From Pseudisothecium myosuroides (lineage: Eukaryota; Streptophyta; Bryopsida; Hypnales; Lembophyllaceae): a stretch of 64,000 bases of DNA. Location of the stretch: contig OX637296.1 of assembly GCA_951799445.1 (NCBI GenBank), positions 25,916,001 through 25,980,000 of the forward strand. The letters run 5' to 3'. Positions 23,659 to 62,249 of the stretch are shown here, piece after piece. The notes under the pieces were generated by a model. That model had not been told where the DNA came from. It worked only from the letters and a program-made list of their open reading frames with translations, and searched no databases. Within the stretch, counting starts at the first letter, position 1. Each line of letters starts with the position of its first letter. Position numbers and translations under genes: made by a program.

Positions 23659-26600
23659 CTATCGAATAAATGGCGACGCTGTGACGATCTCCATCAGCTT
23701 GTCGTATTCCCGATGGTTTCTCTCGTCGCAGAGCATCCGTCGACCAATTCTAGCAACCGCCGTTCCCCTAAACGCCTTCAGTCCTTCCTCTCGAGCTAGG
23801 TGCAGGCCCTGAAACCAAGGCAGCAGGACTTCCAGGAGAAACGTGTCCTTTGGACCATGTCCCCTATTCGTCCACGTCTCAGGCAAAACGACGTTCTCAG
23901 GGCTGTTGAGAATGTGTTTATTTGGACTATCGTCCACGATGATTGTGTTTTCAGCACTGAATCTACCCCGGATGCCAGTGAACAGGTTATTTAGGTTCTT
24001 AAGGAACAACTCCTTCTCCGTGCCTGGCTCCCTGTACGTCGACGGTCTTCCCGTCCTATCTCTGCACTTAAGCGTCTTACACGAGTCTTGTCCGAGAATC
24101 AGCAAAGGCCTATCCAATCCGTCGAAGAGATACTTCGCCACTTCTTCGGTGGTGGACTTCTTCATCGAGCTCCACACAGAAATGGATGCAATCCTGCCTA
24201 ATTGACGTAGGAACTCGGAACATCCCGGGCGAACGTAAACTAGCTTGGGTCCCACTACGGCTGGATTGATAGCCGAGTGCGGCTGAACGGCATCGGGGAT
24301 GCGTTTTGACCAACCCTTAAACTTCAAATCTTTGCAGACACATAAAATCCCATTGAGGTCCAAGACGACGTTGATCCACTTCTCCACCACCCTGGACGTC
24401 AATGGACGATGGACTGCCTCCGAAGTTCCTCCTACATCACAAGAAGGACCGGATTCCTGCTAGACAATAGACAAATGTGCAGCCAGTTATTACCTTATAC
24501 TGGCACATTTGGAACTTCACGCATAATGACGGGGACGCTCATGTTCGAGTTGACTAAATCATTCTTAAAACAAAAATGCACACAGAAAAAGAGTACCCCA
24601 AAAGGTTCCAAATGAGCAGCATGATTTATACCTTCTTCTGCGACGCCTCTCCAATCTCCACGGAAGCATCTGTCGCCACGACGGCCGGCTCTGGAATGCC
24701 AACCTCCAGCAGGTCCTCATCTGAGATGACAACGTCATCTGCGACCAGTGTAAGAGATGTGGACGGTCCAGGCACCGCGGGACTTTGCAGATCTAACTGC
24801 GCCGGCTGTTCCACTGGATGCTGCTCGTCAGCACCTCCCGGGACTGGAAGGATTGGAGCCGCCTATGCGTCGGCAGGAGCCGCCTCTGCGTCAGCTGATG
24901 ATGGCGGGGGCGGAGGGGGAATAGGATGTGGGGGCAAAGGAGGTGCCGGAACAGCAAACTCAGGGAGACCCGGTGGTTCCAATGGAGCCATGTCGCCTGA
25001 TGAGGGAGACAGACCTTCAAGCAGCAGCTGCGGCCTCGACGTCGGGGGCTCAAATGAGGAGAGCGGTCTGGCACCCCTTAAGTGATTGATGATCGAGTCC
25101 AGCTTGTCGGTGTTGTATGCAGAATCCACCAACATGAACGTCTGCATTTTATCCATCCTCGTGTTCTGCTGGTACTGGAATTGTAGATTCGCCGCGCGAT
25201 CCTCCAGTTGTCTCCGCTCCAGCTCCGCGAACCTCTGCTCTATGTATTCGTCCCGCTTTGACAACTTCCTTTTCTTCGGAGTGACGACAGACGAAGGCGT
25301 GCTTGAGGGCTGCTCCTCTTGCACGTGACCGCTCGAGGCCGACGACCCCCGATGTTCCGTCGGAGTGGGAGGAACCGGAGTGCTGGCGTTCACCAGAAGT
25401 TGCTCGTCCAGCACCTGCTGGACATAGAAGTCCTGCTCCTCGCCTTCGTCGTCGGAGAGGACTTCTGGCTCTGCAGCTGGCGCCTTCTCGTGCCGCCCAG
25501 TGGATGGCGAATCCCAGGGCGAATGTTTCCTCTTGCGCGACGACGACAGAGTCGTTTGAGACACCGGAGGCTTCTTGCGCGAAGACGTCGACACCTTATA
25601 CCCCCCCTCCAGGAAGTCGGCCCTGTCTAGTTTCATGGCCGCCAGGGAAATATCATTCCAGAACCCCGTATCGTTGGCAACTCCAACCGCCAGACGTTCA
25701 CAGAACTCATCTGTACATTAAGAAAATTACCACAGGACGTTAGTATTGAGAATACAGAGTGGCTTCAGCTCGATTCGAGCTAAACCCCTCGGTGATTCAG
25801 GACGAGTCCAGCTAATTCGTTCCATAACGAATCGGATCATGCAGGAGTCACACTTATCGCAACAGAAGGAAACACAACAAATGGATGTGGTACATCAGCT
25901 CGATTCGAGCTGATTGAGCTGCAGGGAACTTACCACTGCTGCACAGGTTACTTTTCCTCCTGCAAAGACTGAGAACACACTCATTCCGGGAGAGCAGAAC
26001 TTCTTTATCACCCACAGGTAAAATTCCATGCGAAGCTCCATGTTGTAAAGCCGGAATTCCAACTCGTTGTACCCCCGGGGCTTATTGAATGTATCAGTGT
26101 CCGGAGCCAGAAAGAACTCCGGAATGTCGCCACCCCTCGTACACGATGGACTCGTCAAAAACGTCAGCAGCACTTTGTCGTGCGACTTCGCCTTGGCGGA
26201 GGCCATGTCCCCCATCCGCTCGTACTGTCCCGGTATGTAGTCCGCGAACGTGCACTTGTACGTGCTGAGGACGTCGTTGTTCTCCACGAAGGCGATCACC
26301 TGCGTCTGCTCTTGCATGTCCGCGCATATAAAAAGCCAAGCCGGGACGTCCTCAAATTTCGGCTGCTACTTCCCTCTCAAAGACACGATGACGGTGTTGA
26401 AGTACGGAATTGCGATAGTCCCGTCCTTCTTCGAAAGCACCCCCGGAATGTATCGGAAATCGACAACACCGAGCCCGAGATCTGCAGGGCTGTCAACTGT
26501 CCACGCACCCCTTGGCCACTGAGCGTGGTGGTCTTTCGCGATGTCGTATGGTGCGTAGTGCGCCACTGCCGACGGTGGGACGAAATTCTTCCGTTGACTT

Positions 26601-28893
26601 AGGAAGACTTTGAAGAACTCGGCTGCCTGGTCCGAAATTTGTTCCGTGGACTTGTTTTTCGATTTCTTCTGCTTCACTTCGGAGAAGAAGGCCTCCCCGG
26701 GACGCTCCAAGAGTACATTCAGCGTGGCGGAGGTGACGTTGTACTTCTTCTTGAAGTCCTTCCACTTGTCCTGGACAGGCTCCCCCACCGCGTTCAGCAG
26801 ACCCAAGGACGGATCAATCTTGTTCAACTCCTTCTTCACAAACGCCTTCCGTTTGCGCCTCTCAATCCAATCCTTCGCAGCGTAACAACTTTCGAGAACT
26901 GACGATGACTGCTTAATCGTCACCTTCGGGTGCGGATGCATCCTCTTATCACCATCTCTAAACAGAATGTGGTTGGCGAGCACAATGAGGTCTTCGTTCG
27001 TGAGATTTCCGAAGAACTTGAAGAATTCCTTGTTCAGCATCCCGTTCTCGGTTTTCCAGGACGATTTGACATTGAATTTCTTCAAGGAATCCGCGTCAAT
27101 GAGCTCGCCATGCGCAGCACTGGAGATGACCTCGCTCCAGAGATTGAACACCTCTGCAGGAGCGGTGATGAGCCTAATCTCATTTGTGATGGAGGTGTTC
27201 CCTTTTGAGTCCTTGGCTTTGGACTTCTGATGCGATTTCGTAACGTCAATCATAGAAAAACGCATCTGCATCGCCTTAGTGAATTCCTGCATATAGAACG
27301 GGAAACCAACGTCAGGATCCTCGTTAGCTCGATTCGAGCTGATCTGCGACAAGGTATTGACCAAACAGTCAGCAACTAATTCACAGTAGCCAACATAGCG
27401 TAGTTCAGCTCGACTCGAGCTGAATCACTTATCGTCCACTTCTTCTTGTTCTCGAAGGCAGCTTTAGTGTGCCTCGCGTTGCTCACAGCTCCGGCTTCGG
27501 TGTCCTCTTTCGGGTTGTGTGGTGACCCCATCTCCTCCCTGACATTTCGGGCGCCCAGGATGTTAGTGGCCCACGACGGCTGAATCGCTTGGAAATGGTT
27601 CACTCTGTTGAAGTAGGCCGAAATGGAACGGAGTGTCTCCTTGTCCTCCGTCCATGCAATGTAGCAGTTCCAGGTTTTGAAGTCTTGGATCGTGGCCGGG
27701 TCAATGTTGAACTTCGGGTCCTCCATTAGCTTGCTGGCCCAGACACTGTGCTGGCCGTTGATGATGTAGAATTCCCCGTCCTTGATCTCGGACGACGAGT
27801 CGTCCCCTTCCCTGGTTGGCTTCTTCGTCGGCATGACGCAGAGCGTTTGCCGGTGACTGTGGTCGGGCATATTGCACAGGTAGTGCATCAAGCCCTCAAT
27901 GATCGTCTGTTCCTTGCTCCGGATATTTAATGACGCCGGAGCCTGGATCAGCTTGTCGATTGTGAGCTCCTTCTTCTCCATCTTGTAGAGAAACACATCA
28001 GCGCAGGTCTTCCAGAAATTCTTGTACGCCTCATTGGACTCCTCGTAGTCCGGGTTCCGGTTTGTCTGCAGCGACTCAGGGACGATACTCATGTCCTGGC
28101 TTATATCGTCCACAGCAGAGTGCTCTCCAGTTTTCTCAGCTGTTTTTGCCGCTGATGTGCTAGCCAAATTGCTCTTCGCAAGTGGAGCGTTTGGAGCTTC
28201 CGTCGGCTGCTTGTTGCGCGTGCCTCTTCGAGATGTCTGCCCTTGGGTCTGGTTGTCAATAGACACCTGACTGGGCCCCTGGCTTCCGGCGTTCAGTGAG
28301 ACGCTCCTAGCAGCCTTGCTCTGACGGTCGAGCTGGATTTTCGTTCTGAGAACCGCAAAGTCCTGGAAGAGACCTCGGATTTTTGCACATAGCCTCCGAC
28401 TATTGAGAGGCTCTCCATTAGGTTTCTGGAAGTACTTCTCGTTCACCTTCTCCTCCAATTCTTTAATTTTATCCTGGAACGACGTCGTCGACAGGGACTC
28501 CATGAAATGGGTCACGTGGAAGGGAATCAAACGAGAGTCGAAGTGCAGCGTGAAGTTGTACTGCTTGTCTGTCAGAAGGTCGTTCTGGGTTGTTACACAG
28601 TGGACCTTGATGGTGGGGAAGACGTCCTCCACAACGTCTTTTATTCGTTCGTCGTATGAGAGAGGGAGGTAGGTGTCCATCCCTTTATATTTCACGGCGA
28701 AGCAGATTTGCTCCGAGCACGGGATCATCAGGAGAGTCCAGCTATCCACCTTCTCTGGATACACGAACTCCCAGTACTCTCCATCATTGAGAAAGTCATC
28801 TCCTTCCCCTTCGTCTTCCACTCGTTGGACCTCGGACTTCTTGTAGTAGTGCGTGAGTTTCTCGACCTGCCTCTCCATTCTGCAGCATGACAA
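23659..28893 (-). CDS. ParB-like / methyltransferase-like / FCP1-like fusion protein (element 1)
   Basis: Four exons fit in phase: 28893-27429, 27327-25934, 25705-24632 and 24456-23659 (1,576 codons). Near residue 378 the motif YIINGQHSVW resembles the ParB/DGQHR catalytic-pocket motif. ADMQEQ near 825 takes the place of DPPY (motif IV), and SVFAGGK near 942 is methyltransferase motif I; the IV-then-I order is that of beta-class DNA amino-methyltransferases. A proline-rich linker follows. The last 265 residues are an FCP1/NIF (HAD) phosphatase-like domain with DLNG (1344-1347; the second Asp of DxD is Asn) and VDDS near 1485. TAG interrupts the frame at 26366-26368 and 24863-24865. The first intron's splice sites are the least certain. 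The coding sequence is GC-rich, unlike the rest of the element. The protein is presumably nuclear and acts on DNA or chromatin; this function is inferred. Confidence 0.65.
25767..25911. repeat. Palindrome pair in intron of the fusion gene
   Basis: Two exact AGCTCGATTCGAGCT copies (25,767-25,781 and 25,897-25,911) lie in the intron between the second and third exons, the second within 40 bases of the GTAAGT donor. The outer flanks extend the symmetry (TCAG...CTGA) in the second copy. Confidence 0.85.
27326..27421. repeat. Palindrome pair bracketing the first intron
   Basis: Exact copies lie at 27,326-27,340 and 27,407-27,421, at the two ends of the roughly 100-base first intron. In my splice model the 3' splice site (GAG|CT) lies inside the copy at 27,326 on the minus strand. 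Confidence 0.75.
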
Positions 28894-28920
28894 CCATTGC
28901 TTAGCTTTAAAGACGGTGCT

Positions 28921-29781
28921 AGCTCGAATCGAGCTGAATATTCAACCTCGCAGTTGCCACACATGTTTCGTCATAAATTTCCAGTTCCTGGAATGACAGA
29001 CCCCTCGTTCTGTACTTGCTTCTACCCTGCCGTCCCGTTAGCTCGAATCGAGCTGACTTCTTTCTAGCTGCCCTATTCATGTCTACCTTTCGCATTCGCC
29101 TTGTCATTTAGGTTGTTACGGATCTGGCTTTTTTCTTCATCTTGTTTCTGAGAATTAAATTTTTCAGCTCGATTCGAGCTTCCGTGTTCATTTCTTCTTT
29201 TGTTTTCATGTTCTTCCCGTTCCGTGTATTTGTCTCGAATCAAACTGACAGGGTGGGCTCTTTTGATTTATCCGGTAGTCGAGGTTCATAGCCACCTTCT
29301 TACTTCTTGTCTAGTCAATTCTTCATTCTTTTTAATTGATTTGTTTCTGTTTAACCCTTAACTCGAGTTATTTTCCTCTTCAGCTCGAGTCGAGCTAAAT
29401 CTCTCCGCGTCCCTCGGCATGCATTTTTCTGTTTGGCTCCTTTTTTCTATGTTTTATGTTCAGCGCTCTCCTCACTTCCTCTCCCCAATTTATTTTTTGT
29501 TAATATTTTACAGTGTTGTTCTCCTAGCTCGATTCGAGCTTACTTATTCTGATTTTTTTACTGGTTATTATTTATAATCTTTTTTTCTTTTAGCTCGAGT
29601 CGAGCTAAATGGGTGGTTTATTATATGTTTGCTTCAAATTAGCTCGATTCGAGCTGATTTTCAGGGTGTCCTGGATTTTACATGGGCGTTTTTTGTGTTT
29701 TCGTGCCAGGTTTTGTTGATTTTAGCTCGAGTCGAGCTAATTTCATAAATTAGGTTGCTGAAATTTAGCTCGGCTCGAGCT
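28921..29781. repeat. Dense cluster of 15-bp palindromes upstream of the fusion gene
   Basis: Exact AGCTCGANTCGAGCT copies begin at 28921, 29040, 29166, 29382, 29526, 29592, 29641 and 29724, with a one-mismatch copy at 29767 and a degenerate one near 29232. Spacing is 50-220 bases. Flanks often extend the symmetry as TYAG...CTRA. The central base varies (A, T, G). They occupy the leader region just 5' of the start codon and end abruptly at 29,781. Confidence 0.9.
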
Positions 29782-31140
29782 AAATGTGCTTCGAGCTACA
29801 CTCTTTGAAGCAGGGGGGGTCCTTGAACAGGGGTATCGACACAAACCCTACACAGACCCTGCACAGACCCTACAAACTTTAAGCACAATTAACCCCAACC
29901 CTAACCAGACCCTACAGACATGACAAACCAGAACCCCAGCACAATCCTGAATGTGAATCCTAAACACAACTTGCGTAATCCAAGCACATGCCATAATCCT
30001 TCTGTAGGCGAAAATTTAAAATTATAACACCACCAGTACTACATTCACGTTTTCATTTGGACCTAAAGAACTGAACCAGGCTCAAATTCAGAGCTTTCGG
30101 TACTAATAGAACCCACAGTCACACATATCTATGGCATTACCACACATGAGAACTAGAATGTCTTCGAATGCAGACTTTACTAAGCCCTCAAGCCCTAATC
30201 ACCTACATTCCTTATGAAGCCTACTAATTGCAAGCATTCCAGCAACATGAAACTGTGGAAACCCTAAGAACGTATACTTTTCAACAACAATCTTAGGCAA
30301 CTGCAAACTCTGGAATTTATAAATGCATTTCCAACAAACAATCTTCAAGAACCAATCAAGCAAAGCACAATTCAAGAGCAATTCACAATTCAGGAGAACA
30401 AACTCACCGTAAACTCCACGATACTTATTCCCTCGACCCGGCTTCACGAGACGGCTTCACGAGATCAAAATTGGATACAAACCCAGTAGTCGTCACTGCA
30501 TGCTACAACACCAAACAGAAAGTTAGTCATCGCTTCTAATGAGGTCCTCAACACGGCTCTAAAGTTGGGACTGACAGGGAACTCCCACATTCAGGGTAAG
30601 CAAACCTCAGCCAGACGAAGGTTCACTAGAACATGCTGCTGGACTCACTCACACCCCTCGATTTTACAATTGCAACGACTGGAAAAGCAAAATAAAGAAG
30701 ATCGCACTGAACCCTAGAAACACATCCCCACTCATAACTTGCTGAATGCAAGCTCAACCTCCCGCCACCACAACCTCCATCCAAAACAAATTCTAATACA
30801 AAATAGCAAGTACTGGAGATGAGAGTAACAGAGGAAAAAAGAACGAAAAAATCAAGATGGGCAGCAACTCACCAAGCTGTCACCGCGACCCTAAACCTTC
30901 GTCCTCACACTCCAACTTCGAAACAACAGTAAAAAACCGCGATGAAGAAGCTTCGACGCACCTAGCTTTCACCGTCAGGAAAAAGCTCCGTCGTCAGCTC
31001 AGAAGCTCAAATCGTGCCTAAACCTCCGTCGTCGCACTGGCGCTGCAGGTTTCCAAAATCGAACGGAATCCACGCTCCTCAATCACTCAGGCGCGCGCGC
31101 AAACAGGGAGAAACGACAAACAAAAACAAAATCTCAAGAA
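29782..31140 (-). promoter_or_regulatory. Probable leader and promoter region of the fusion gene
   Basis: Repeated ACCCTA phrases occur at about 29,843-29,910. A C/G-rich block with CGTCGTC and GCGCGCGC lies at about 30,930-31,100. Telo-box-like AAACCCTA motifs at about 31,187 and 31,207 lie just beyond. This is the only promoter-like sequence upstream of the minus-strand gene, so transcription probably starts near 31 kb with a long, possibly spliced leader. The start site is not visible directly. Confidence 0.35.
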
Positions 31141-32887
31141 ACGCTAAGCACAGACGGGAGAAAATTTAGCTGACAAAAGTGAGCGCCAAACCCTAACCAC
31201 GAATCTACTAAACCCTAGCCCTCTTCCCGATTCACAACAGATATCCGGTTGATACCCGCCCGACCACGACTGATCCCCTACTTGTAACCGGTTCTCAATA
31301 CCCGCCTTCTCCATTGATAACCGGCCCTGAACCACACCAAGCCCAAACGTTGCCCTAAACTCTAGTAGCTTCACCCTACCACACAAAATAGTGAAATTAG
31401 GTTGCCCATTACAAATTTCTTGACAGTCTACACTATAAAAACATTTATTGTTCCTCGACAAAAATAGATTACTTCGGAATTAAGTATTGTTGTAATTGGG
31501 ATTGATGAACCTCCATATAATATACAAACAAAAAGATTTGTAGAAAGATTTGTTGACTTTAATTTCTTGTAAAGTAATTTTCTGGAAGTATAGCAACCTA
31601 ATTGTCAAGGCAATTTAGTTTCACTATTTTGTGTAGTTCATCCTACACAAGCGAGCTACTTTTTCTTCTTGAAATTGACATTCCATAAATAGGTCAATAT
31701 TATTATATATAAATACGTTATACTTTTGAATTAAATATTGATGTAATTATATCATAAACCTGCAGCCACAGAAATTGAAGTATCTACAGTACTCTTTATT
31801 CACGTTAATGGCTTGGAAAAGTATATATTTCTTGGTATAAGGCACCCTAATTCTCATGACTTATTGAATGTAATTTAACAATGTATTGTATGGAGCACAT
31901 TCAAACCCCTAGTAAATTTGATAGGGATCCGAATGTCAATCTGTCACCCTTGAACACCTACTTGTTGACCGTGGAAAGTTTGTTTACTGATAATCAGTGA
32001 CACTATCCACTAATTTCTTGAAAACAACTAATGCTAATTTATTTGATGTAAAAGTACTTTGCACATTAAACACATTTGGGATAGAATTGCAATACACATT
32101 GAATAACAGTATTGGCCTAAATTTAAAATTGTTTGTCTTCCATAATATATGCAAAAGGAGATCCAATTGGTAATTCCTAGAGTTACTTGTATAATACCGA
32201 GGCGTTCCAATTATAAAAACAACCATGAATAACCATTTTTATTATATGTAGTATGTGCACGGTATTAATTTTTTTCATTTATAAGAGGAAGCAAAAATAA
32301 ATTTAATCTAATTAAAGTGTTGTATTTGAAAGAACTGAAAAACAAATCATCAAGTTTGTATGCTTCAGTGTTCAAAATAGAATATAGAAGTTGGAAATTA
32401 TTCATAGATTGAGTGTAGTTGTAAAAGCACACTATAATCATTGGCTACATTTCTTAATTTACTAAAAGAGTCTAATAAACAATTGACCTTCTGTTGTATT
32501 TCAAAAAATTTAAGAGAAAGAAGTGATAAATTTGATATAGGGTTGTGTAAGGAAAAAGTATAGAAGTTCAAAATGATATAAACATTCATGTAGGATTCAT
32601 GAACATAGTAATATATCATGGTCTTTATTTTTTAATTTACAAAAGTTCTAATGATTGGGTAAAATTTCCTTCAGAATAAAAATAAAGCATTCACATAAAC
32701 GAATCCATGACAACTCATATTCAAGGCAACTAAAATATAGGACACATTTCATTCCCAATTTTTTTTTTGCGGACAGAAGAAGTTCAAATGGATTCAAAAG
32801 GAAAATATTATATTTCATAGCATAAGAGTTGTCATATTTCATGTTTAATGGCTCTACATTTTTTAGTTATTCAACCTACAGCAGCGG
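31141..32887. other. Non-coding centre of giant element 1, left part
   Basis: AT-rich apart from the first 300 bases, where ACCGG and TACCCGCC phrases recur (about 31,240-31,330). The open frames are short and unrecognised. I see no gene here. Confidence 0.5.
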
Positions 32888-34140
32888 ATGTCTTTACTTA
32901 GCGGTACTTTTTTTTGCTCCTCTTTCCAATTTTTGAAGTGGAGGTCCAAATTGGAGGAGCTCATGGGTTTCAAAAGTTTCCAACATTTGCAACTTCTACA
33001 TATTTTTATATTTCCTCCTCGTTCCAATTTCATGACTTTAAAGTTCTATTTAATTGAAAGTACAGCGAAGATGGATGGATATTTGTTTTTTGTTTTCCTT
33101 TTTAATTTAAGAAAAAAAGGGGCAAAGTGGAAGACCTCATGGGTTTCAAATGTTTCCCACATTTGCAACTTCTACATATTTTTATATTTCCTCCTTGGTC
33201 CAATTTCATGACTTTAAACTTTTATTTAATTTAAAGTACAGCAAAGGATGACCGGTATTTGTTTTTTGTTTTCCTTTTTAATTTAAGAAAAAAAGGGGCA
33301 AAGTGGAAGACCTCATGGATTTCAAATGTTTCCCACATTTGCAACTTCTACATATTTTTATATTTCCTCCTCGTTCCAATTTCATGACTTTAAAGTTTTA
33401 TTTAATTTAAAGTACAGCAAACGATGATCGGTATTTGTTTTTTGTTTTCCTTTTTAATTTTAGAAGTGGAGGTCCAAATTGGAGGATCTCATGGATTTCA
33501 AATGTTTCCCACATTTGCAACTTCTACATATTTTTATATTTCCTCCTCATTCCAATTTCATGACTTTAAAGTTCTATTTAATTTAAAGTACAACAAAGGA
33601 TGATCGGTATTTGTTTTTTGTTTTCCTTTTTAATTTTAGAAGTGGAGGTCCAAATTGGAGGATCTCATGGATTTCAAATGTTTCCCACATTTGGAACTTC
33701 TACATATATTTATATTTTCTCCTCGGTCCAATTCCATGACTTTAAACTTTTATTTAATTTAAAGTACAGCAAAGGATGACCGGTATTTTTTTTTTTTTTT
33801 CCTTTTTAATTTTAGAAGTAGAGGTCCAAATTAGAGGAGCTCATGGGTTTCAAATGTTTCCCACATTTGCAACTTCTACATATATTTATATTTCCTCCTC
33901 GTTCCAATTTCATGACTTTAAAGTTTTATTTAATTGAAAGTTCAGCAAAGGATGACCGGTATTTGTTTTTTGTTTTCCTTTTTAATTTTAGAAGTGGAGG
34001 TCCAAATTGGAGGAGCTCATGGGTTTCAAATGTTTCCCACATTTGCAACTTCAACATATATTTATATTTCCTCGTCGTTCCAATTTCATGACTTTAGAGT
34101 TCTGTTTAATTTAAAGTACAGCGAAGCCAGATGGGTATTT
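32888..34140 (+). repeat. Tandem array, unit about 178 bp, seven copies
   Basis: A roughly 178-bp unit containing GCAACTTCTACATAT, CCAATTTCATGACTTTA and GTCCAAATTGGAGGA recurs seven times from about 32.9 to 34.1 kb with modest divergence. Two degenerate copies lie at about 35,100-35,230 and 35,270-35,420. Some units keep an open frame on the plus strand, but the period is not a multiple of three throughout and no start or family is evident. I read the array as satellite-like internal DNA of the element. Confidence 0.85.
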
Positions 34141-50201: not shown

Positions 50202-51930
50202 GTGTTCAAAAGAAGTCAAACAATTTCAAGACATCTCATGTACAGGCTTAAAATTTCCAGTAAGCAAACTTAAACATTAAATTACATACTTCTGAACTAC
50301 TTCAAAGGTTCAACATTGCCCTCAGCAAGGTAAAAACGACCATCATAATCAAATGACCCAGGATGGACACCTAGGGCATAACCCCATGTTGTTTATTTCC
50401 AATTTGTGAGATTTTGGGCCACTTCAATGTCTCACTTGACACTAATTGAGTGCCTAGTAACCTCATTAGGGAAACCTAGCTTTCTTAGAGAAAATCATTT
50501 GAGAAGGTAAATTTTTTTAGGCCTTGAACATTGAAAAATATTATGACTACTTCAAGTGAGTAAGGTGAGCATTATGGATACATTTTTTGGTTGATTATGG
50601 AATAGTGTAGAGGCTTTTTTGGACTTGAACCTTCAAATATTCATAGCTAATTCATACTTTGTCAAAAAAATATAATTTCAAGTGCTCTCTCTATTTATCA
50701 TACTTGTCTTCATGTGGGGGAATTTTTTTTAAATTTCAAGAATGGCATGATGAGTAACTCCTAATTCTGACTTTGATGGGCTGCTTTACCTTACTCGTAC
50801 TAGTTCTACTTGATTGTTAGAAAACAATTGAAGTGTGTTTTTTGCTTTTTTTCTATATATTCATCAAATTCCAATAAGAGGACTGAAATCTATCTTGGAT
50901 TCAAAACTAATGCTTTAAAGCTTTAAAGCGAATGACTGCCATCTATTTCAAATCAAAGACTGAAAGTTTACGGTTCATCATTCACTTAGGACGTCCTTTG
51001 AATCCCAGATGGAATCCAGATGGAAGGTTCTTCTACCTTCAATCCAAACATAGCATAAACTCCTTCCTGGAGTCTTCCCAAACCTGGAAAATCTTATTAA
51101 CTCAGTCCATTTGATTCCGGTCCTTCTATTTCAATCAAAGTGATTAACTGATGCAGAAAAAGTAAAAGAATTAGTTTATCGATTTCATTAACTGAACAGA
51201 AACTTGGAGTTCCGTGTTTAGAGATAGTTGGACAATGTTCTTTTATCATTCTTAAAAGAAACCTATCATGTGAATGTACTTGATTGGTGTTATGTCTGAC
51301 ATCGCAATTGCTTTGTCACAGAACTCAGCAATTAGGTGATGCAAAATGTGATGCAAAATGATACATAAATATCCCAAGGATAACATCTAACCTTCTCTTG
51401 CACAGTACGACTAGGAATCTCATGCCGAACTGGAACATCTGCTATCTCCATTTGGGGGGTTGTCAAGGGGGTGTAGGACATAAAAACTTCTTAATATTAC
51501 GAGTTGTAGCCAGTATAAGGACCTGTGTCACAGAAGTTGAGAAAAATAATTGTGTGTAGTTAGAGTTCCTAACGCCTGAGTCTGCTTCTCTTCCAATTCC
51601 TGCTCCCAAATCCCGAGAGCATGCTTGCATCTGCAAAGAATAAACATATCATAATAGTTGGTCAAAGCGTTTTTCTTGCTTGCTGTCAAAGAATAGAAGC
51701 AGCTGAGATTTTTTTTATGGACATAATAAACACCTCAGAGCATTCCAGTAATCAATGCGGATAAGGTATAGCGTGTGTCAGAGTACGCAAAGTTCAAAAA
51801 TGAAGAAAATAGAGTAGAATAGGGTTAAAGTAGTAAAAGTTTTTTCGCTTTTCGTATAGAAATAGGGAATTAGGAACAAAAGTTTAGGATCAAAGATTAA
51901 GTGTCTTCTAGACAAACTAAAACTATATTT
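50202..51930. other. Non-coding AT-rich interval in element 2
   Basis: No gene, long repeat or hairpin is evident. The open frames are short and unrecognised. Confidence 0.45.
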
Positions 51931-53330
51931 AGGTTTTCCGGAACCAAACGCAACTGCCAGCCGGAATCCGGAAGGTTCCGGAATTGTAGGAATTAGCCGA
52001 TTTCCGGAATTTTAGGAAGTTCTGGATTTTTAGGGAGTTCCGGAATTTTAGGATTTGAACGGCTTTCCGGTTTTTTCCGGAACGATCAGTAGGACCGTTG
52101 GCCAGGTTTTGAGGCGGACTCGGAATCAGAAGAGGAGGAGGAGACGACTCAATCGGAGGAAGAAGAGTTGCAGCCTCCTCGGACCAGGTCAAAGACGAAG
52201 AACACCCCGCCTAAGAAGACAGGTGGATCGCCATCTCAGGGTGGCACTTCTGTGAAGAAAGCTAAGAGGAATAGGTGACTATTTAGGGTAGCCGTAATAA
52301 TAGTTAGGATTCTTACCAGGATGGTAGTTCCGGAAACGGATTTTCCGGATGTGGGACCAGTAGTTCCGGACTTTTAGGAGTTTAACGGTTTCCCGGTATT
52401 CCCGGAACGGTCTTCAGGGCTGTTGCCTTTTTGCTTTTTGGTTGGCCGTTGGCTGGTTTTTTGGTGGCCGTTTGGGCTGCCTTCTTGTGGGTTTTTAAGG
52501 GCAGGCCGGCTTGTTGGCCTGTCATTCCTTTTCCTTGTTCATTTAATCTGAAGCATTCAGGAAAGCACTCGTTGGATTATTCTCTTGCGTATCGCGTCTA
52601 TAGTCACTTGAGTGGATGTGTAAGTGAGAGTGTGCAAGGGGAGGAGTCCGGATTCGTGGACTGCCGGATTAGGCTAAGTGTATCTTGCAGATGAGTTTTT
52701 AGACTTGCGCAGTGAGAAAATGGCGCCTTTAAATCGCTGGTATGGTAATCCGGTGGAGACCAAGGAGTGGTCCGGAAGCTAGTCCAAAATTCGCAGGGGC
52801 GGTTTCGTGCGGAGATAGGCAACCGCCAGAGGAATATTTCCACCCATCCGGAAGGCTAGTCAACCTCATGAGCGGTCGAGAGCTAGGAAGTCATTCCCTT
52901 AGTTTCGGAAGTCCGGTATCCGTCGTTGTAGTAAGGAGGACCTAATGCTACCCTGTGTGACCAGCTTTCCGGATAGGCCATCTGGGATGTTGTGAGGATG
53001 CCACCCTGTTTACTCAACTAGATTTATTCTTGGGTTGTGTTTTGTTTTATGTTAATAGAGTTTATGTCAGATATGGAGTGGTGCAGTTCCCTACCCCTCG
53101 GAAAGAGCAAGTGAGGAACCCTCTGAGGGTAAAACAGAGGTATAGAAAACCAACTTGTTAGAAAGACGGAACTGGAAGATTGGATAGAGCCGGATCCAGA
53201 AGAGAATCCGGAAAGGAAGTAATTCCGGAAAAGAGTTCGTGTGTTGAAAGGACCCCTCTCGAGGTGGTCAAAGTCCGGAAACTTAGAGGTCTAGAAATAC
53301 TAATTTTTGAATCAACGTCTGGAATCTCCT
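51931..53330 (+). repeat. TTCCGG-rich repetitive segment
   Basis: TTCCGGA, TCCGGAA and related phrases recur more than twenty times, often as AGTTCCGGAATTTTAGG. The segment is richer in G+C than its flanks. Around a short coding remnant (52,093-52,278) it looks like the 3' end and terminal repeat of an inserted retroelement, but the matching 5' part is absent. Confidence 0.45.
52093..52278 (+). pseudogene. Acidic-then-basic protein tail, fragment
   Basis: An open frame of 61 codons ending in TGA. It reads an acidic run (ADSESEEEEETTQSEEEEL), then a lysine/proline-rich tail ending KKAKRNR. It has no start codon. Low-complexity charged tails of this type occur at the C-termini of retroelement polyproteins and nuclear proteins. 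The TTCCGG-rich surroundings favour the former. Confidence 0.3.
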
Positions 53331-54220
53331 GGGACGATAACTTGTGTTATTTTAGCACGTTTTGTTGTTAAAAATACTTACGCCTAGATTACGCGTACGA
53401 CTGCGTGTCAGCAAGCATGCACAGCAGTAGTGTTTTTGATAATTTTAAAGCAGAAAATTGTTCGACTGCCAGATTGTCCAAACTTACTTTTGTTTGTTGC
53501 TTTTCGAAATTACATACTCAGAAGATTGAACGTTCAAAGACTTGGGCGAGCGTTAATTCTTTGTTGTTGATAATATTCTCTTTAGAAGTGATGATCAGTC
53601 TTCAAGCTTTTTAAGCTCTGATCGATGCTTGAAACGGAGAAGACTTGGGCGAACATGACTTCTTTGTTGAGCTGGTACCCTCTAGAAGATAGTTGCTGCT
53701 TTTCAAACTTTTTAACCTATGGTACATAAAAAAGTGGGGAGAGTCTGTGCAAATTGACACTGGATAAGTGTATTTGGAAAGGTCTACCATCAAATTTGAC
53801 AGCTAACAGTGATTCATGAATGTTGCGTCAAATTTAGAAGATGGTGAATTTTAGTTTGCATGCTCCTATACTAAAAAAAAAGTTATTCAAATTAGAATTA
53901 TTTCAAGAATGCCGTGTGTTGACTTTCAAATGCCGCCAATCCAACTGCTTGTTACTCAAAAATTAGAAACATTATGTGGCTTGTTGTCAAAAAAGATACT
54001 TCTATTTTGGCTTAAACACTCACTAAGTAGGCAGCATTTTGAATCTCACCTGCCGCCACAATTACCGGAGCACAGACTGAAGCCGCCGATGCTCCAATCC
54101 CACAGCCTTCATCTTGCAGAACCAAACTTGCATATATTCAGTTTCCTTGCATCATTCATTCCATCATTCTGCTCTCCTGCTTTCTGGTTGCCTTTTTTAT
54201 TCCTTGAAATTGTCGAGATC
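53331..54220. other. Upstream region of the element 2 methyltransferase-like gene
   Basis: Two related segments with AAGACTTGGGCGA (about 53,538 and 53,640) indicate a roughly 100-bp imperfect tandem duplication. No TATA box can be chosen with confidence. The presumed promoter of the plus-strand gene must lie here. Confidence 0.35.
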
Positions 54221-57200
54221 ATGCAGAGAGACGCTCCCGCAGTAACAGGGAGGGCCACACGACTTCGGATGCGAGAGGCAGAAGCGCAAGAAGAGCAGCA
54301 AACTCAAGCGACGGAAACCTCTGCTCAAGAAGATCAAGTTTGCATTCTACTCTGCAAAGCAATCTACATGTTATTAGTATTCATGATTTAAGATTTTCCT
54401 ACTATCAACTTTATGATTGCTAGATGCTAATGTGCACGTCGTGTTACTTAAAAGTACTGCACTCTCTGACAGCGGAGGTGGCACAAACTGTTTGTAACTA
54501 TTTGTGCAATAACAACAATAGAATAGATTCCTGTTGTGACTCTGCATTACCTTAGTATTGTTCTTATATTACTTGGTTCATGAATAAGTGGATTTCTTTT
54601 ATTTCTTCGTAAGTACAGAGAGGTTAGATTATCTCCTTATGAAAGTCTTTTGTAAGTGAAATTTTTTTCAGTTTTTGCGACAGGCATCTCAAAGGGAATT
54701 GGCTTGTGCACACTCAAAGTAACAGAGACTTACATGTTGCAAACTGATTATTGTAGTTTCTTTACTCTATTAGAATTTTAACTACAATTCCAATCAGTCT
54801 GCATTCTACAGCAAGGTCGTGAGTTCCCGCAGAATGAGTGAAGTGAGCTACTGACGTCTGAACCAAGCCAGTATAGTTCTATAATTTCAAAACAAAGAAG
54901 CGTAAGTGACGAAGCTCGAAATGTGGTTCTGCAAAAAATGTTCGCCTTTAATGTTTTGTACCTCTTAGAATTGATGCGTCAAAATCTGAAAATTATTTAA
55001 GACCAATATCAGGGGTACTGCGGGATACCCCCAAAACGTCAGTTGGACCCGACTGAGGTTTTGGATGTGTCCCGCAGTACCCCTAATATCGGTGTAGAAA
55101 CCCTAAAGTATGTAGTTTAGTTCGAAATTACCTTTTATGAATGGTTTAGAGTGCTCACTGGTGATGTGCGTAGCAATTTTAGGCCGAACACCTTCTAAAT
55201 CGACTCACAATTGGATAATTACTGCTTGCCAATTGCTTCCTTAGCGCTTCTTGGTCATGCACAGCCATATCAACCAAACTTTAGCATTTCAAGAAACCTG
55301 TGCATGCACATTATCAAGGTAGTGAGGGCATCGTCACAAGCATACTTGTTTCGATTCAGATTGTGTTCTCAGGAAGCCAGCAATTTGATAGCACAGCTCT
55401 CTTAGCATGGACGTGAACACCCTAAACCTTTCTTTGAAAAAAGAACTGATTTCCAAACTTGACCAAAATCAGGGGTACCAGAAGGCACTGCAAAAACCTC
55501 AGTCAAACCCGACTGAGGTTTTCGAGGTACCTTCTGGTACCCCTGATTTTGGTCAAGTTTGGAAATCACCGTAGGTCGCGCAGATGATTGCCAAGTTTCA
55601 TCGCTGTCGGAGAAAGTATGAGAATTGCGTAAACTCTATGGACGGGCAAAGAGTACATTAGCAGATAGGATTAGTCTGTCTAGAGTGATCGCCACTTAAC
55701 ACTAGTTTGAAGTACTTTTTTCTCTTAGTAAACAGAGCTTTAGGGTCTTAGAACACAAAGACTCCACCGAGGTGGGATTACTTTTAAAGTAAAAGAGTAT
55801 TTGATAGAAAAAAAAAATCCTTTACCCTCAAAAGCTAGCTCTAAGCAAACTAAAATTTAAAACCTAAATGAATTATTTTGATTGGCCAAGAACAAGTGAA
55901 GAGTATAACTTATTTGCTATAGTATTGAAAATTCACTTGGAATATTTTGTAACTAATATCATATGTCATTAGTTCATATGTCAATGATTTTGTATTCTTT
56001 GAAGATGAATATTATATAATTGCATTTGGATTAGCGTATATTCTCTATCCAGTTTTAGTATATATTCTTAGTATTGAGAGTGAAATTGAGAAGTACTTCT
56101 ATACCATTCTCAGGTTTAGTACCATATTAGTTGAGACTTAAGTGTTTTTAATCCAAAATTAACTAAAGAAAATGATTAAAGTAAAATAGTATACAAAAAT
56201 AAAATTGATTAGAGGAAAATATTAAAAGAAGAGAATTATAATTTACAACTTTGAAAAATTGTTGATCTATGGAAAATGATGATGTGAACTAGTGTACTCT
56301 AGAGTTGATTAGAATTTGCCTTTTAACCTACATATTTAGACCAATGTTTAATGTTGGTTTAATTTAAAGTATGTAGCTTTGGAATTTTAAAGTCAATTTC
56401 AAAGCCAACTTAGAGTGAATTCCTATAGCCAAGTTCCAATTCAAGTCAATGGCTTCTAAGATTTGAATTTGTCACGATAGTTTAGTGCCTTTTTATTCTT
56501 TATGGAAAAAATAAAATCTATAAGTTAGGTTCTCGTGAATTCTCAAAGTGAAATAATGGAATTCTAATTGTTATGATGATATTTTGAATTCACATCATTG
56601 GTAATTCATTTAATATATTAAATTATGATGTGAATTTTATTTTTAACATCAAATGATTTGAATGTGCAGATGAAGCCTGCAGGTGTTAACATTGGTCAGG
56701 CTTCTTTTTCGACGGCAGACATTGCAATTGTGGAGGATCCTGCGGTGGAGCAAATCATACCTCAAACTCCAAGACCCGCGGATGTGGAGGTGTGCAATGA
56801 ATCCCAAGCACAAGAGGAGACGGACTTGGTAAGCTTTGGGAACATTATGGATGCATGTGATCGTGCCGCGGATTGCTTGGACGTGGACGTGTACAGTCGT
56901 ATTAGCAAGTCAAGGAAACGAAGGTTGCCGGTTTTTTCACCTGAGAGCTCTGAGACAGAGTACAGCTCAAAGAGTTAGTGTAGCTTGCAGGGAGTGTCAT
57001 CAGGATCGGTGTCTAGCCCATGGGGTCCTATATCATGTTATTGTTCTAGTCGCGTTTGTGTACGGTGGAATGATTTAGTTATCATCCACCAATGTTCAGA
57101 CTATGAGGATATTGTCAACATTGAGTGAAACATGTAAATGACATGTTTTTACTATAAAAGTATTGGAATTTCAACTTGCAAATAATTCCCATATGTTAGT

Positions 57201-60200
57201 GTTATATTTTTTTGGTATCTTCAAGGGGTGTTATAATGTTTGGCATGAAGTTAAACATAGGGTCTATTGAATAGATGTGAATATTTGTATGCTATATAAC
57301 AACTTCTTGTTCATTTGTTATTTCGTTAACTATTATTTGAAAATTGTCTTATAACTTGCAGGCGGAGGAGTCGCCAATAAATTTGTCACAAGACGAACAA
57401 CGCCAAGTGACACCGGGGACTGATGAGACACAACAGCCAGAGATTGGAGGTGAAGAAGATGCACATTTTCAGATTGGAGACATAGATGAAGATGAAGAGA
57501 AAGAATTGCTCGAGGATGAGCTACGGCGATTGCAGAAGGTGGACTCTGTGGCCACCATTGCCAGTTTGAGATTTAAACCTGAGAATTTCTCAAGATTTCA
57601 AATTCCTCTTTGCAGACTTGTGCCAATGCCTATGGTGAGGCCAACCCTCTCTTCTGATTTACTAAAATTGGAACAAGAGTTTGTTCATGGTTACCGTGAT
57701 GGAGCGGCAGTGTTTTATGTATCCACAACCAATGAATCTAGGGAGAGCTTGGAGTTTACGGAAGATGAGATGAACAGCTGGGACCCGTTGTGGAAGCAGA
57801 GAAATGAAGAATTCAATCAGTTTTTGGAATTGAAGCCGGAGCTTAAATTCATGAAGAACTTGAAGTTCTTTGTGTGCGACGGAAATCACCGTCGCATTGC
57901 TTAGATGAGTCACATAAGAAGGCGATATTTGGCGGACCCTAATTGGCATATTTTTGTGGACTGTATTGTTCTTGAAACGAAAGGAAGAATCGAGTTGGTC
58001 ATGCAAGTCATGCATGATATCAACAAGTGAGTATTTTTTTAATATTTCATGTTAATGTGTAGTTTGTTGTTCATATTTAGGAATTTCTGTGTTATCTTAC
58101 GCTTACAGCTTTTGATTGACTATGTGTATTGTTTGGTTTCAGGTCCACGGAAGATTCGCACGTGAAGACCAATTTAGTGCATACACTCTACCGCGTGCAG
58201 AAGTATGGGCGTTTTCCGCTGGATAAGTTTATGGAGATGCTCAGATCGTCAGAGAAAAAATGTTGTGGAAACTCAAGCGGGAAGAAGTCATGGTACACTA
58301 TGCCTCAAGACGTTATGACAGCATTCAATTTCAGAGTGAGATCCATTTTTCCATTGTAACTTATATTTATTCTATATGTATTGTATTTGTTGCATTATTA
58401 TCTTGAATTTTTTAGAGAAGAGCTTATTGAAATGTTGTTCAATTTTTGTAGCAAGAAATTTCTCAGGCGGCAGACATTGCGGCACGAAAGTACAAAGAGA
58501 GCACTGCAGTTGAAGAACAAAAACCGGAAGGCATCGCTAATGCCATGAGGGCTGGAGCAAAAAATAAGGCTGGAAAGTTGTATGTCAAGATGGGGAAGTT
58601 GCTGGCCGTGGCGAATCCGGAACTAGGTCCCAAATTTCTGGAAGAAGTACGTGTGGTTTGTGAATCAATGTTTTATTGTGATTTTATTTGTTTGCCCTTG
58701 TATATGCGATATTCATATCATACCATTTCATTTTTCAGGTGGAGAAACACTGGTCAATGAATGAGGATCCAGAAATGACTCTAGAGAAGCTGCAAATGAT
58801 TGTAACATGCAAAACAACAAAAGAGTAGATGGTGAAGTACATGAAATGGTGGAATTCCTCTAATCCATCTCGAGAGGCACGCAAATTCCCACCGCATCCT
58901 GTTTCTGAGGAGAAATTGTTGCCCTTTCTCAATAAATGCGTGTGGTGGTCCGGGGTAAGTTTTTCCATCATATAATTTGAGTATTACGTTTGTCTTGTTG
59001 TCTTAATTTTTTTTATCATTCTTTTTTTTTTTTTTCCATTTATATTAGTATTATGCAGACGAGTATAAATGAATTTCATACCTTTGCAGATTGAGATTGC
59101 TGCTCAGGAATACTTTGAGAACGTGGTGAGCAAAGACAACCTTGAAATCAACATGGGGGTCCCACTAGAGCCACAGTCACTTACAGAGTACATTGAAGGA
59201 TGGAGAAGGAAAATATGGGAGCAGGGATTTGGCCCTTATCTGAAGGGGACTAATATTTTTAAGAAATCTGAGTTCTTCTCAAATTATAAAGGATCAGACC
59301 AAGCCATGCGAAGAGTTCTTTTCCGGTTAGTGTTCGAAATTTTTCAATCAAGTACTTCCTTCCTCCCATTTGAATTGTAGCCATTTTCATTTTTAATTGG
59401 TGATTGTTTTGGTTAATGCAGGTAGCGACTTCATTAGAAATTTCCATTGAACCAAAAGTTGGGGTACCGTGAGGTACTCCAAAAACCTTAGTCGAGTCCG
59501 ACTAAGGTTTTTGGAGTACCTCACGGTACCCCAATTTTTGGTTCAATGAAGATTCTCAATTTTTTTTTTTTTTTTAATTTTTTTTTGGAATTCTGTAATT
59601 TTCTTATTCCTATTGAGGTCCATCCAATGTTATTTTGATTTCAATTAGCATATTCACATTTGAAGAATTTTAGAACCCTAAGCACCTCTTTGTAAAATTT
59701 TGAAACTCCAAAATTATTAGTTAGTGGCCGTTGTGCCTGGTGTAAAGCTATAATTTATGAAATTATTGGAAGTATAAAAAGTAAAAGTATTGTGAGGTAT
59801 TCCGGAAACCTAAGTCGGGTCTGACTGATGTTTTTGGAGTACTTCACAGTACCCCCAGTTTTGGTACTATCAAAAATTGTATACATATTTCAATTTTTTG
59901 TGGAATTATTTTTTATTTCAATGTGTTGTTTTTTATTTTTTGGTAATCCATGAGATGCTTGACTTATTTCAATGTACTTGTTATATTTTTATTTAATAAA
60001 CATTGCACAATTCTATATAGTAGTTGAATAATTGAGTAATTGACTAACATGAGTAAGTTTGCTTTTTTGACAGTTACTTCAAGCTTGAGCTTGTAGCAAA
60101 GAAAGCTTTAGCACGTGAGGATCTTCCTCCGTTCTTGTCCTCTTGGTTGGACCGGAGTTTGGAAGAGTGCATGTACACACCGTTTCAACTTCAGATGTTC

Positions 60201-62249
60201 ACGACTGCACATCTCAGTGGAGGAGGGTGGTATTTGGATTGCTCCGTGCCATACACTCATCTGACGGAGGTGGGGCTTCGGAAGTCATTTAATGGCCTTG
60301 GTGTTATTGACATGGAGGTTCCTGAGTTTGCGGATCTTTCAGACACAAAGAAAAAGAGGGCCATTGCAAGGAGGATGGTTGCTGACAAGAAGAAAGAAAG
60401 CAAGGAACAAGAAATTATGGCAAACAAGTCAAAGAAGGAAGCGGAGCGTTTGGCAAAACTGGTAGAGAAGGAGAAGGAAGTTGAGAAGGAGGGAAAAACA
60501 AAAGGCAAAGGAAAGAAGAAGGTGGAGGGTAGTGAGCAAGTTCCAACGTCTTCAATGGTCGATCAGAGCTCTCACATGGAGTCTGGTTTGCGCAGTGGAA
60601 TGAAAAGGAAGGCGGTTCTGAAGGAGCTCACTGAAGACATGGTGACGCAAGGCACACAAGTCATCATCATCGATGATGATGAAGAGGTGAACTCAGAAGA
60701 GTTGATCCTCAATGACTCTATGATTGACGTGATGGAGAATGAGGAAAGTGAGGATAAAACATGCTACAAGGAAGTGATGAACTTCTTGGAAAAGGTAATT
60801 TCTTGCTATTTGGGATTTCAAAGTTAATTTTGTTATTGGATGGCATGATTGTAATAACAAGTTAATTTATGTTTGTTTTTTCAAAATTTGTTTGCAGTTC
60901 TCCGCTGGGAAAGTTTATACATTTGGTGGAGAAGTAACCAAAAAGTATGGAGTGGACCTTATTTTCTTTGATTGTCAAGAGAATTTGCCCGTCCCTGGAG
61001 TGTCAGTTCTAGATTTGCATGTGCCAAAGTGGAACGCCGACAAGGGATACGAGGAAATCCAGCAGGCTTTTGAATTTGCAGAGAAGCATTTGCACAATCA
61101 TGGGTGCATTTTGGTGTTTCATTCGTGGAGCGCAAAAGCGAAGGGTGTTGTTGCTGGACTTTGTAAGGTGTACCCATTTGTGAAGATGAAAGAGTGGTTG
61201 GGAATCAACCGCATGCACTTGACCTCCGCCGTGGATCCTTCAGACACGGTATAGTATTTTGTTTTTTTCACAATTTGAATGGCATGTTGATACGCATATT
61301 GTATTATTCATTTTTGATGTATTTTTTTATTCGTTGCTTGCAGACAATGAAGTTTGGGATCACCCTCTTGGTGAAAAAACTTGACAATGGCCGGAAATCA
61401 GAGTTGGCTTTCAAGCTCACAGAGTCTATGAGGAAGGCAAAAGTGGACCTCCATCGTGACGTGTTGCTAAACTATACTTCAGAGGATACAATGTTGATGA
61501 ATGGGCAAATTCCATGGTGTGGGCCTCTCGAGAAGGACGCTAGGCTTTTTCAATTCATCATTGAAGGAACAACCATTGAAGGAGATATTATTCTTGATTG
61601 TAGAGCAGCTACTGGTGAGTTTTGATATAAATGATTGTATATTGAAATGGTAATTTACATATTTATCATTCAATTAATCAATTGGATGTGATTTATGATA
61701 GGTGCATCGATTACGGCTTGTCGCGGCACAGGGCGCCACATCATAGCTTTAGAGGACGACAAAGACATCTTTGACGCAATTCTCCTACCCATGCGGAGGA
61801 ACACTCCGTTGGTGGTGACAACAGAAGTGGATGAGGAGGTTCAGTTGTCTCAAGATCCAGATGCCATGGAGGTCGAGGTTTTCAAGTTTGCTCGAAAAAC
61901 TAAACCTAGTAAGTAAGTTTTAAGAGGTGTAAATTTCATATAAAAATGCAATCATTGTGTTTCATAATTTTCGTGTTTTTTTTGCAGCCGTCAAGGGTTG
62001 ATGTCGACAGATGCAATTTTGCAGAAACGAAGGCTTCTCTTGAGTCCAGAGAAGTCTTTTGATTTGCCAATTTATGCAGAGCAATTGGCATCAGCATTCG
62101 TAGAGTTCGGTTGCTCTAGACGAAAAAAACGTAGAGATGTTTATGCTTTGAACGTGTTAGAGTTCTTAGATATTAGTGCATCTGAGGGTAGAGAGACTTC
62201 TGAGTCTTCTACCAACGAGGATTCCGCAACAGAGTCGACTGCGACTTAG
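54221..62249 (+). CDS. ParB-like / beta-class methyltransferase-like protein (element 2)
   Basis: Twelve GT-AG exons join in phase: 54221-54337, 56670-56828, 57362-58026, 58143-58335, 58452-58646, 58739-58954, 59090-59325, 60074-60794, 60898-61248, 61344-61614, 61702-61912 and 61988-62249, giving 1,198 codons. A ParB-type motif CDGNHRR lies at 264-269. A charged, Lys/Glu-rich region spans about 690-790. LIFFDCQEN (855-863) stands in the position of the catalytic DPPY (motif IV). LDCRAATGAS followed by ALEDD (from about 1035) is motif I with the acidic residue that usually contacts the methyl donor. TAG codons interrupt the frame at 57902-57904 (after HRRIA) and 58826-58828. The order of the modules matches the element 1 protein, but no phosphatase-like domain follows. 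Exon 1 is the least certain. Confidence 0.65.
55003..55092. repeat. Foldback element H2
   Basis: The outer stem CCAATATCAGGGGTACTGCGG pairs with the sequence ending at 55,092 (with one or two mismatches), enclosing a core that reads AGTCGGGTCCAACT on the minus strand. It lies in the first intron of the methyltransferase-like gene. Confidence 0.85.
55448..55568. repeat. Foldback element H3 (longest stem)
   Basis: A 39-base uninterrupted stem begins TGATTTCCAAACTTGACC and ends at 55,568 on the other arm. The core reads AGTCGGGTTTGACT on the minus strand. It lies in the first intron of the methyltransferase-like gene, about 360 bases from H2. Confidence 0.95.
55570..56660. other. First intron remainder, AT-rich
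   Basis: Non-coding AT-rich DNA between foldback H3 and exon 2. I see nothing else in it. Confidence 0.45.
59445..59548. repeat. Foldback element H4
   Basis: A stem beginning CATTGAACCAAAA and continuing GGGGTACCGTGAGGTACTCC pairs with its complement ending at 59,548. The inner palindrome CCTTAGTCG/CGACTAAGG surrounds AGTC. It lies in the 748-base intron between exons 7 and 8. Confidence 0.95.
59771..59870. repeat. Foldback element H5 (degenerate)
   Basis: The same architecture with more mismatches: GTGAGGTATTCC opposite GGAGTACTTCAC, and core AAGTCGGGTCTGACT. It is in the same intron as H4. Confidence 0.75.

Follow-up and report, generated by a model that had tools for sequence, protein, structure and literature searches.

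What are proteins that resemble ParB and a DNA methylase doing inside plant transposons? The ParB fold is best known from bacterial DNA partition, yet the window analyzed here, a 64,000-nucleotide stretch of a moss chromosome, contains two transposons, E1 and E2, each carrying a gene for such a protein. A preliminary description made from the sequence considered the two genes homologous, and proposed that they had been acquired by, or exchanged between, different transposon lineages. The phosphatase exon, the palindromes spread over the elements and the degenerate state of both gene copies, all described below, are additions to that description. We examined the boundaries of the elements, the domains of the two proteins, their relationship and the palindromes that accompany them.

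Two unrelated transposons inserted in one older repeat

E1 and E2 are real, unrelated transposons of about 19.7 kb that differ in ends, target duplications and proteins. Both are hosted by one copy of an older repeat, other copies of which provide the empty sites. E1 (19,686 bp, positions 22341..42026) carries a DUF7869 gene plus the gene of the ParB/methylase-like/phosphatase protein. Its two 21-bp terminal inverted repeats (left, 22341..22361, plus strand; right, 42006..42026, minus strand) are perfect reverse complements of each other, and the target duplication GTTA (left copy 22337..22340, plus strand; right copy 42027-42030) is present as a single copy in an empty site near 14860-15030. 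E2 (19,666 bp, 42928..62593) is flanked by the 11-bp target duplication GCCGGTTCGGG (left copy 42917..42927, plus strand; right copy 62594-62604), which is single at 17355-17365 and at 7801-7811 (minus strand), two empty sites. Target duplications of the MULE superfamily are about 9-11 bp, and that of E2 is of this size.

The E1 DUF7869 protein (946 residues, 38643..41483, plus strand; PF25273, E 9.9e-42) is probably the transposase; a PDB sequence search with it gave no relevant match. The transposase-like gene of E2 consists of two ORFs (44118-45170 and 45533-47821, together 44118..47821, minus strand) and has no profile match, the 762-residue ORF being without a relevant match in Pfam or NCBIfam; the designation MULE-like is our own reading. 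Searches for Rfam families and tRNAs gave none.

The boundaries and empty sites bear out the earlier statements that the transposases, ends and target duplications differ and that the genes are linked here to two types of transposon. As both genes lie inside elements having target duplications and empty sites, ordinary host genes are ruled out for these two copies only. The homologous sequences from other genomes, L001 and L002, do not extend far enough to include element ends, and direct linkage to a transposon is limited to the E1 and E2 copies of this window.

Domains of the E1 protein

The E1 gene is modeled on the minus strand from 28878 down to 23659 in four exons. Exon 1 (27433..28878) encodes a weak PH/PTB-like N-terminal part and, as judged from homologues and fold, a ParB-fold domain containing NGQHSV. 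Exon 2 (25934..27286) encodes a methylase-like domain, assigned from homologues and the fold of the L002 exon, and contains an in-frame TAG at 26366-26368. Exon 3 (24632..25705) encodes the end of that domain and a linker, and contains an in-frame TAG at 24863-24865, whereas exon 4 (23659..24457) encodes an FCP1/NIF phosphatase domain (PF03031, E 7.6e-17). With two in-frame TAGs in the model and a first donor that is not GT, this gene copy is degenerate.

The preliminary reading of the protein as ParB-like and methylase-like stood at the level of fold, whereas sequence profiles gave nothing for ParB and little for the methylase. Fold matches of the E1 protein include ParB and KorB, and the domain has the alpha+beta fold of the ParB/Srx group. 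In Pfam searches, 63 exon-1 rows matched 17 families with no ParB family among them; the best E value, 0.001, came from a single row. Where ParB has its nucleotide-binding box, of the GxxRxxA type, the E1 family has NGQHSVxAS. A DNA-reading helix-turn-helix was not identified in the E1 protein. PDB sequence searches with the E1 profiles A1 and A2 were without relevant match, NCBIfam gave no match for three E1-family proteins, and PHROGs gave nothing above E 0.1 for four.

The methylase-like domain has a class I fold in which motif IV precedes motif I. In the E1 family it matches the folds of beta-class N6-adenine methylases, CcrM being among the closest solved structures and models. Over 64 exon-2 rows, Pfam gave a weak PF01555 match in two; the L002 score was 14.9 bits, below the gathering score of 26.7. 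PF17840 (Tugs) was commoner, being found in 11 of the 64 rows (best E 3.6e-4), matches that we take to be chance hits on a helical stretch. The catalytic motif of the beta-class N6/N4 amino-methyltransferases is (D/N)PP(Y/F/W). The E1 family lacks this motif and has D(F/L)RxxP in place of DPPY, with the D, R and P each present in at least 90% of 40 rows. FxGxK replaces the SAM loop of the methylases, FxGxG not being kept.

The phosphatase-like domain scored 61.9 bits against PF03031 (cut-off 21.8), and that of L002 scored 53.8 bits. FCP1/SCP (NIF) phosphatases of the HAD type have the catalytic motif DxDx. Both the E1 copy of the window and L002 have DLNGIL, in which the second D is replaced by N.

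Viral contigs contained no relative of the exon-1 profile, the exon-2 profile or the DUF7869 protein, and phage records none of the two methylase pieces tried; these searches leave a viral or phage origin unsupported.

The E2 gene and its relationship to the E1 gene

The E2 gene was modeled with 11 exons (56670..62249, plus strand). As first placed, nine of the ten introns were GT-AG; the donor of the tenth was shifted two bases to GTAAGT, which keeps the frame. The model contains two in-frame TAGs (57902-57904 and 58826-58828), so this gene copy is also degenerate. Exon 2 (57362..58026, plus strand), in which the first TAG lies, encodes the motif DGNHRR and weakly matches a DGQHR model (E 0.09); Pfam and PDB gave no relation of this part to ParB or DGQHR. 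Exons 8-10 (60898..61912, plus strand) encode an N6_N4 methylase-like stretch that matches PF01555 (E 5.9e-5; 23.5 bits, again below the gathering score of 26.7), a PHROG DNA methyltransferase (E 4.6e-7) and a CcrM model (E 3.4e-4), and from which DPPY is absent. For E2, therefore, the methylase half of the preliminary reading is backed by profiles, whereas the ParB half consists of a motif and the DGQHR match.

The order of motifs reported for the two proteins was confirmed: NGQH in E1 or DGNH in E2 is followed by a motif IV-like strand and then by a motif I-like segment. The gapless 41-residue alignment offered as evidence of homology did not hold up, having 4 identities in 41 and a BLOSUM62 score of -10, a score reached by 219 of 10,000 shuffles. 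The best ungapped local segment between the E1 sequence of the window and E2 was not above chance (reached by 1,890 of 2,000 shuffles); that between L002 and E2 was marginal (116 of 2,000). Comparisons of the E1 family profiles with the E2 protein were not significant. Neither common descent nor exchange between the lineages is thus indicated by a significant sequence link, and there is no E2 homologue among the matches listed.

Palindromes in the noncoding parts of both elements

E1 contains 22 copies of the palindrome AGCTCGANTCGAGCT, 16 of them exact, with the core C-GANTC-G; none lies in the coding model. Sixteen are upstream of the two E1 genes, at distances of up to about 1 kb: nine (eight exact, one with one mismatch) precede the ParB-like gene (28921..29781) and seven (four exact, three with one mismatch) the DUF7869 gene (37836..38571). 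The remaining six comprise two exact copies in intron 1 (27326 and 27407; 27326..27421), two exact copies in intron 2 (25767 and 25897; 25767..25911) and two one-mismatch copies 3' of exon 4 (23460 and 23577; 23460..23591). Note that the probabilities assume independent sites, which is doubtful given duplication.

The palindrome is also present in introns of relatives, having persisted in spite of protein divergence to about 31% identity in exon 1. In L001 and L002, it lies in the gene of the ParB-like protein, mostly in introns or beyond exons. The stricter form of a signature was found in 11 of 58 tails versus one match in 37,681 residues; a wider form was chosen after inspection of the tails under the stricter one, and related rows are not independent. 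The signature is absent from 47 of 76 tails. MITE insertions are an unlikely source of the E1 palindromes, because what the copies share is a unit of only some 15-22 bp, which is found again in introns of relatives.

The palindromes of E2 are five in number, longer (92 bp) and of a type other than those of E1, and are noncoding in the gene models. One lies between the two transposase-like ORFs (45399..45490), two are upstream of the E2 gene (starting at 55002 and 55462; 55002..55553) and two are in its intron 6 (59451 and 59774; 59451..59865). Within a copy, the two arms match each other at 30-43 of 46 positions; between copies, arms match at 25-39 of 46 (mean 32.5). These palindromes could be hairpin insertions.

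A possible self-recognition function

E1 and E2 would each encode their own multi-domain regulator. We tentatively propose, at something short of even confidence, an element-encoded regulator that recognizes its own element, resembles VANC in layout and keeps copies expressed. The E1 protein combines a ParB fold, a methylase-like domain in which the canonical residues of the catalytic motif and the SAM loop are no longer present, and a domain resembling FCP1/NIF phosphatases. Judging from their co-occurrence, the ParB-type protein may recognize AGCTCGANTCGAGCT in promoters and introns, and by analogy with ParB it might load and spread at these sites. The methylase-like part may read or shield DNA bases instead of methylating them, and the phosphatase-like part may have as its target the tail of RNA polymerase II or a factor associated with it. 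The net effect would be that motif-bearing copies stay transcribed despite host silencing, a putative sequence-specific anti-silencing. In E2 there would be a separate version, paired with palindromes of that element. Against self-recognition, support for the ParB part of E2 is weak, the palindromes of E2 differ in type from those of E1, and both gene copies are degenerate. We regard as rather doubtful the wider proposal of a lineage-specific palindrome code, in which two unrelated transposon superfamilies would sustain family transcription against host silencing by ParB-parS-like self-recognition. In this proposal a ParB-type clamp, fused to a repurposed N6-adenine methylase fold with altered catalytic residues (in E1 also to an FCP1-type phosphatase), would load on the element's palindromes in promoters and introns.

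Plain autoregulation, in which a ParB-type activator or repressor would, like KorB, use the palindromes to control expression of the two genes and would leave host silencing unaffected, seems somewhat unlikely. The 16 upstream sites fit it, as does the presence of KorB, a ParB-fold repressor, among the fold matches, but a promoter repressor has no need of sites inside introns or beyond the 3' end of the model, where the other six of the 22 and most of those of L001 and L002 are found. Co-occurrence would also fit binding of the palindromes by the transposase or a host factor, with the ParB/methylase-like protein doing other work such as nicking or repair in transposition; nuclease activity is described for some ParB-like domains, and DNA nicking for a bacterial ParB-methylase (PMC5512222). 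We judge this unlikely: the outermost sites of E1 are some 1.1 kb from its left end and 3.4 kb from its right end, ill-suited to end recognition, and in L001 and L002 the palindrome is retained within the gene for the ParB/methylase-like protein itself. That an active methylase marks its own element with N6-methyladenine, for example at GANTC within the palindrome, is very improbable, for although CcrM recognizes GANTC and is among the closest structures and models, the catalytic and SAM-loop replacements of the E1 family and the missing DPPY of E2 speak against it.

Comparison with known systems

The preliminary description could not match the system to a described one, and our literature search likewise found no description of such a system. 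To our knowledge, transposon counter-silencing is understood in few systems, VANC being one of them. In the Arabidopsis VANDAL (MULE) transposons, the element that encodes VANC has multiple copies of a short motif in its introns and in noncoding DNA upstream (PMC5735166, PMC10398659). The likeness is one of layout, the E1 motif being confined to noncoding parts at all 22 sites. In contrast to VANC, the E1 motif is palindromic, the protein has ParB-fold, methylase-like and phosphatase-like parts, and the target duplication is 4 bp.

As in ParB-parS, a ParB fold and palindromic sites occur within the same element, and VirB is reported to be a CTP-binding anti-silencing regulator of the ParB superfamily (PMC10653881). 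Unlike in these systems, the sites are scattered over a chromosomal transposon, a Pfam scan of 18 ORFs from the window gave no ParA match, and NGQHSVxAS occupies the GxxRxxA place. Bacillus cereus Bce_0392 is described as joining ParB and adenine methylase domains in one protein, an arrangement like that found here, and DdrB-like ParB domains of phage, as here, occur in mobile elements (PMC5512222). The E1 and E2 genes differ in being eukaryotic and intron-bearing with altered methylase motifs, and E1 has the extra phosphatase domain.

In the plant transposon family of E1, a ParB fold is accompanied by a methylase fold whose active site departs from the canonical one yet is conserved. If the proposed function is true, this protein would add a new architecture to those that control the plant epigenome in a sequence-specific way. 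Relative to the beta-class N6/N4 methylases of PF01555 (CcrM, M.BceJIV and M1.HpyAVI), DPPY is lost in both E1 and E2 and FxGxG in E1, and the E1 relative L002 and E2 both score below the Pfam cut-off. MTA1c, METTL3 and Adineta N4CMT are further comparison enzymes beside this class.

Two transposons in one repeat copy

The window has the character of plant-like nuclear DNA with GT-AG introns, and its tRNA and Rfam scans gave no match. Element E1 (22341-42026, 19,686 bp) has a perfect 21-bp terminal inverted repeat and the target duplication GTTA. When joined, its flanks aligned, across the junction, with three further copies of the repeat that E1 interrupts. GTTA is present once in the copy near 14860-15030, and ATTA stands in its place in the other two. 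Element E2 (42928-62593, 19,666 bp) is bounded by an 11-bp duplication, GCCGGTTCGGG, found once each in two further copies of that repeat, and its ends gave nothing better than an imperfect, GAGC-rich inverted repeat. Because the other copies contain the empty sites, both elements lie inside one repeat copy, 901 bp apart. The preliminary description was right that their ends and target duplications differ. Several kb are repeated at 5689-21565 in direct and inverted copies (e.g., 10124-10886 versus 12538-13300, 93%), including copies of the repeat interrupted by E1 and E2.

The 946-aa protein of E1 is a DUF7869 protein (PF25273, E about 1e-41), which we infer to be its transposase; literature searches on DUF7869 found nothing. 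The intergenic region of E1 carries seven 176-bp tandem repeats (32928-34164, 91% matching). Profile searches with the transposase-like gene of E2 (44118-47821) gave no relevant match, and calling E2 MULE-like is our own reading of the duplication length and sequence. Two 53-bp copies (48928-48980 and 49059-49111, 83% alike) of a further inverted repeat lie 1.1-1.3 kb upstream of that ORF, and 16 of the 25 TCCGGA sites in the window are packed into 1.3 kb of E2 (51937-53279).

The E1 gene family

The E1 gene (minus strand) encodes a ParB-fold domain in exon 1, a methylase-like domain in exons 2-3 and an FCP1/NIF phosphatase domain in exon 4. Of the 62 homologues of exon 1, two Physcomitrium patens proteins alone bear a species name that suits the window, which makes a moss the likely source; one further match is labelled uncultured Leptolyngbya. 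Two related contigs, L001 and L002, are intron-bearing and plant-like and were deposited under the cyanobacterial MAG AVDCRST_MAG81, a label that is likely due to contamination.

Methylases have DPPY at motif IV and FxGxG in the SAM loop, whereas 40 aligned exon-2 rows have (I/V)D(F/L)RxxP, with D, R and P each at 90% or more, and mostly FxGxK. Since the change is itself conserved, the altered letters suggest a domain that may have been put to new use rather than decayed. The phosphatase motif is DLNG, the consensus being DxDG.

Relationship of the E1 and E2 genes

The modeled E2 gene (56670-62249) has eleven exons. Its methylase stretch (exons 8-10) fell below the PF01555 cut-off (E 5.9e-5; 23.5 bits versus 26.7) and matched a PHROG methyltransferase (E 4.6e-7) and a CcrM model (E 3.4e-4); the top PDB matches, two M1.HpyAVI sequences and CcrM, were weak (E 0.021, 0.021 and 0.13). 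Motif IV, which lacks DPPY, was read as LDLHVP, with VDLIFFDCQENL as an alternative placing. The first domain bears FFVCDGNHRRIA; Pfam and PDB searches with it gave no relevant match, and DGQHR (E 0.09) was the sole profile hint.

The two genes had been described as homologous, a claim that profile comparison did not bear out: in hhalign comparisons, the E2 protein and the E1 profiles were paired with probabilities of 0.1-0.2 percent, although the exon-1 alignment pairs NGQH of E1 with DGNH of E2. In HMM searches against 200 shuffles plus one reversed sequence, E2 ranked fourth with the exon-1 profile and was unranked with the exon-2 profiles. Over the 41-residue block said to align, four residues are identical and the score is negative; 219 of 10,000 shuffles reached that score. 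Both proteins seem to have the same order of two domain types, and both lack DPPY. We judge common descent somewhat more probable than not, as an opinion rather than a result.

Palindromes in noncoding DNA

All 22 copies of AGCTCGANTCGAGCT in the window (at most one mismatch; 16 exact) are inside E1. None overlaps the coding model, which covers 38% of E1 (P 2.6e-5), and 16 fall within 2,022 bp immediately 5' of the two E1 genes (P 6e-12), both values assuming independent sites; introns 1 and 2 and the DNA 3' of exon 4 hold the other six. Eight occur in each of L001 and L002, six exact and two with one mismatch. Those of L001 lie upstream of exon 1 (three), in introns 1 and 2 (two) and beyond exon 3 (three); L002 has five in introns 1 and 2 and three in stretches read, without proof, as introns. 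Frame signatures of the palindrome occur in 29 of 76 translated intron starts (15/29 after exon 1, 14/47 after exon 2), with 34 matches in 1,945 aa of tails versus 5 across the exon body (40,805 aa). That pattern was widened after a stricter form had been seen (11/58 tails, one match in 37,681 aa of body); the sample excludes both Physcomitrium proteins and any row that lacks the anchor motif, and its related rows do not count as independent. Element E2 carries five 92-bp palindromes of its own, all within the element and noncoding under the gene models.

The E1 palindrome (e.g., 25767-25781) has the core C-GANTC-G. GANTC is the recognition site of CcrM, and CcrM is among the best matches of both methylase-like domains, a link that is suggestive only.

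A possible anti-silencing function

The palindromes lie in promoters and introns rather than near the ends, which tells against a role in recognizing the ends and favors control of expression or chromatin. Two papers (PMC5735166, PMC10398659) describe a similar layout for VANC21 of VANDAL21, in which motifs and protein binding fall in noncoding DNA, introns and intergenic stretches included, and methylation is lost. VirB is a bacterial precedent for a ParB-superfamily anti-silencer and requires CTP (PMC10653881), and a ParB-adenine methylase fusion is found in Bacillus cereus (PMC5512222). Given the site placement and these precedents, we therefore tentatively favor an element-encoded protein of self-recognition and anti-silencing. 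Such a protein would bind the palindromes and might spread from them, with putative contributions from the methylase-like and phosphatase-like parts. Plain autoregulation ranks next and seems rather unlikely.

Transposon-encoded sequence-specific regulators are a known kind, and we cannot match this architecture to any described eukaryotic one; literature searches (ParB/methylase, transposon, moss, anti-silencing), mostly of listings, returned no description of such a system. Both gene copies in the window are degenerate, with two in-frame TAGs in each model, and the mechanism is therefore proposed for the family rather than for these copies. All four stops (57902, 58826, 26366 and 24863) are TAG, which may be chance. 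In the window, the E1 gene has a first splice donor that differs from the one in L001 and L002.
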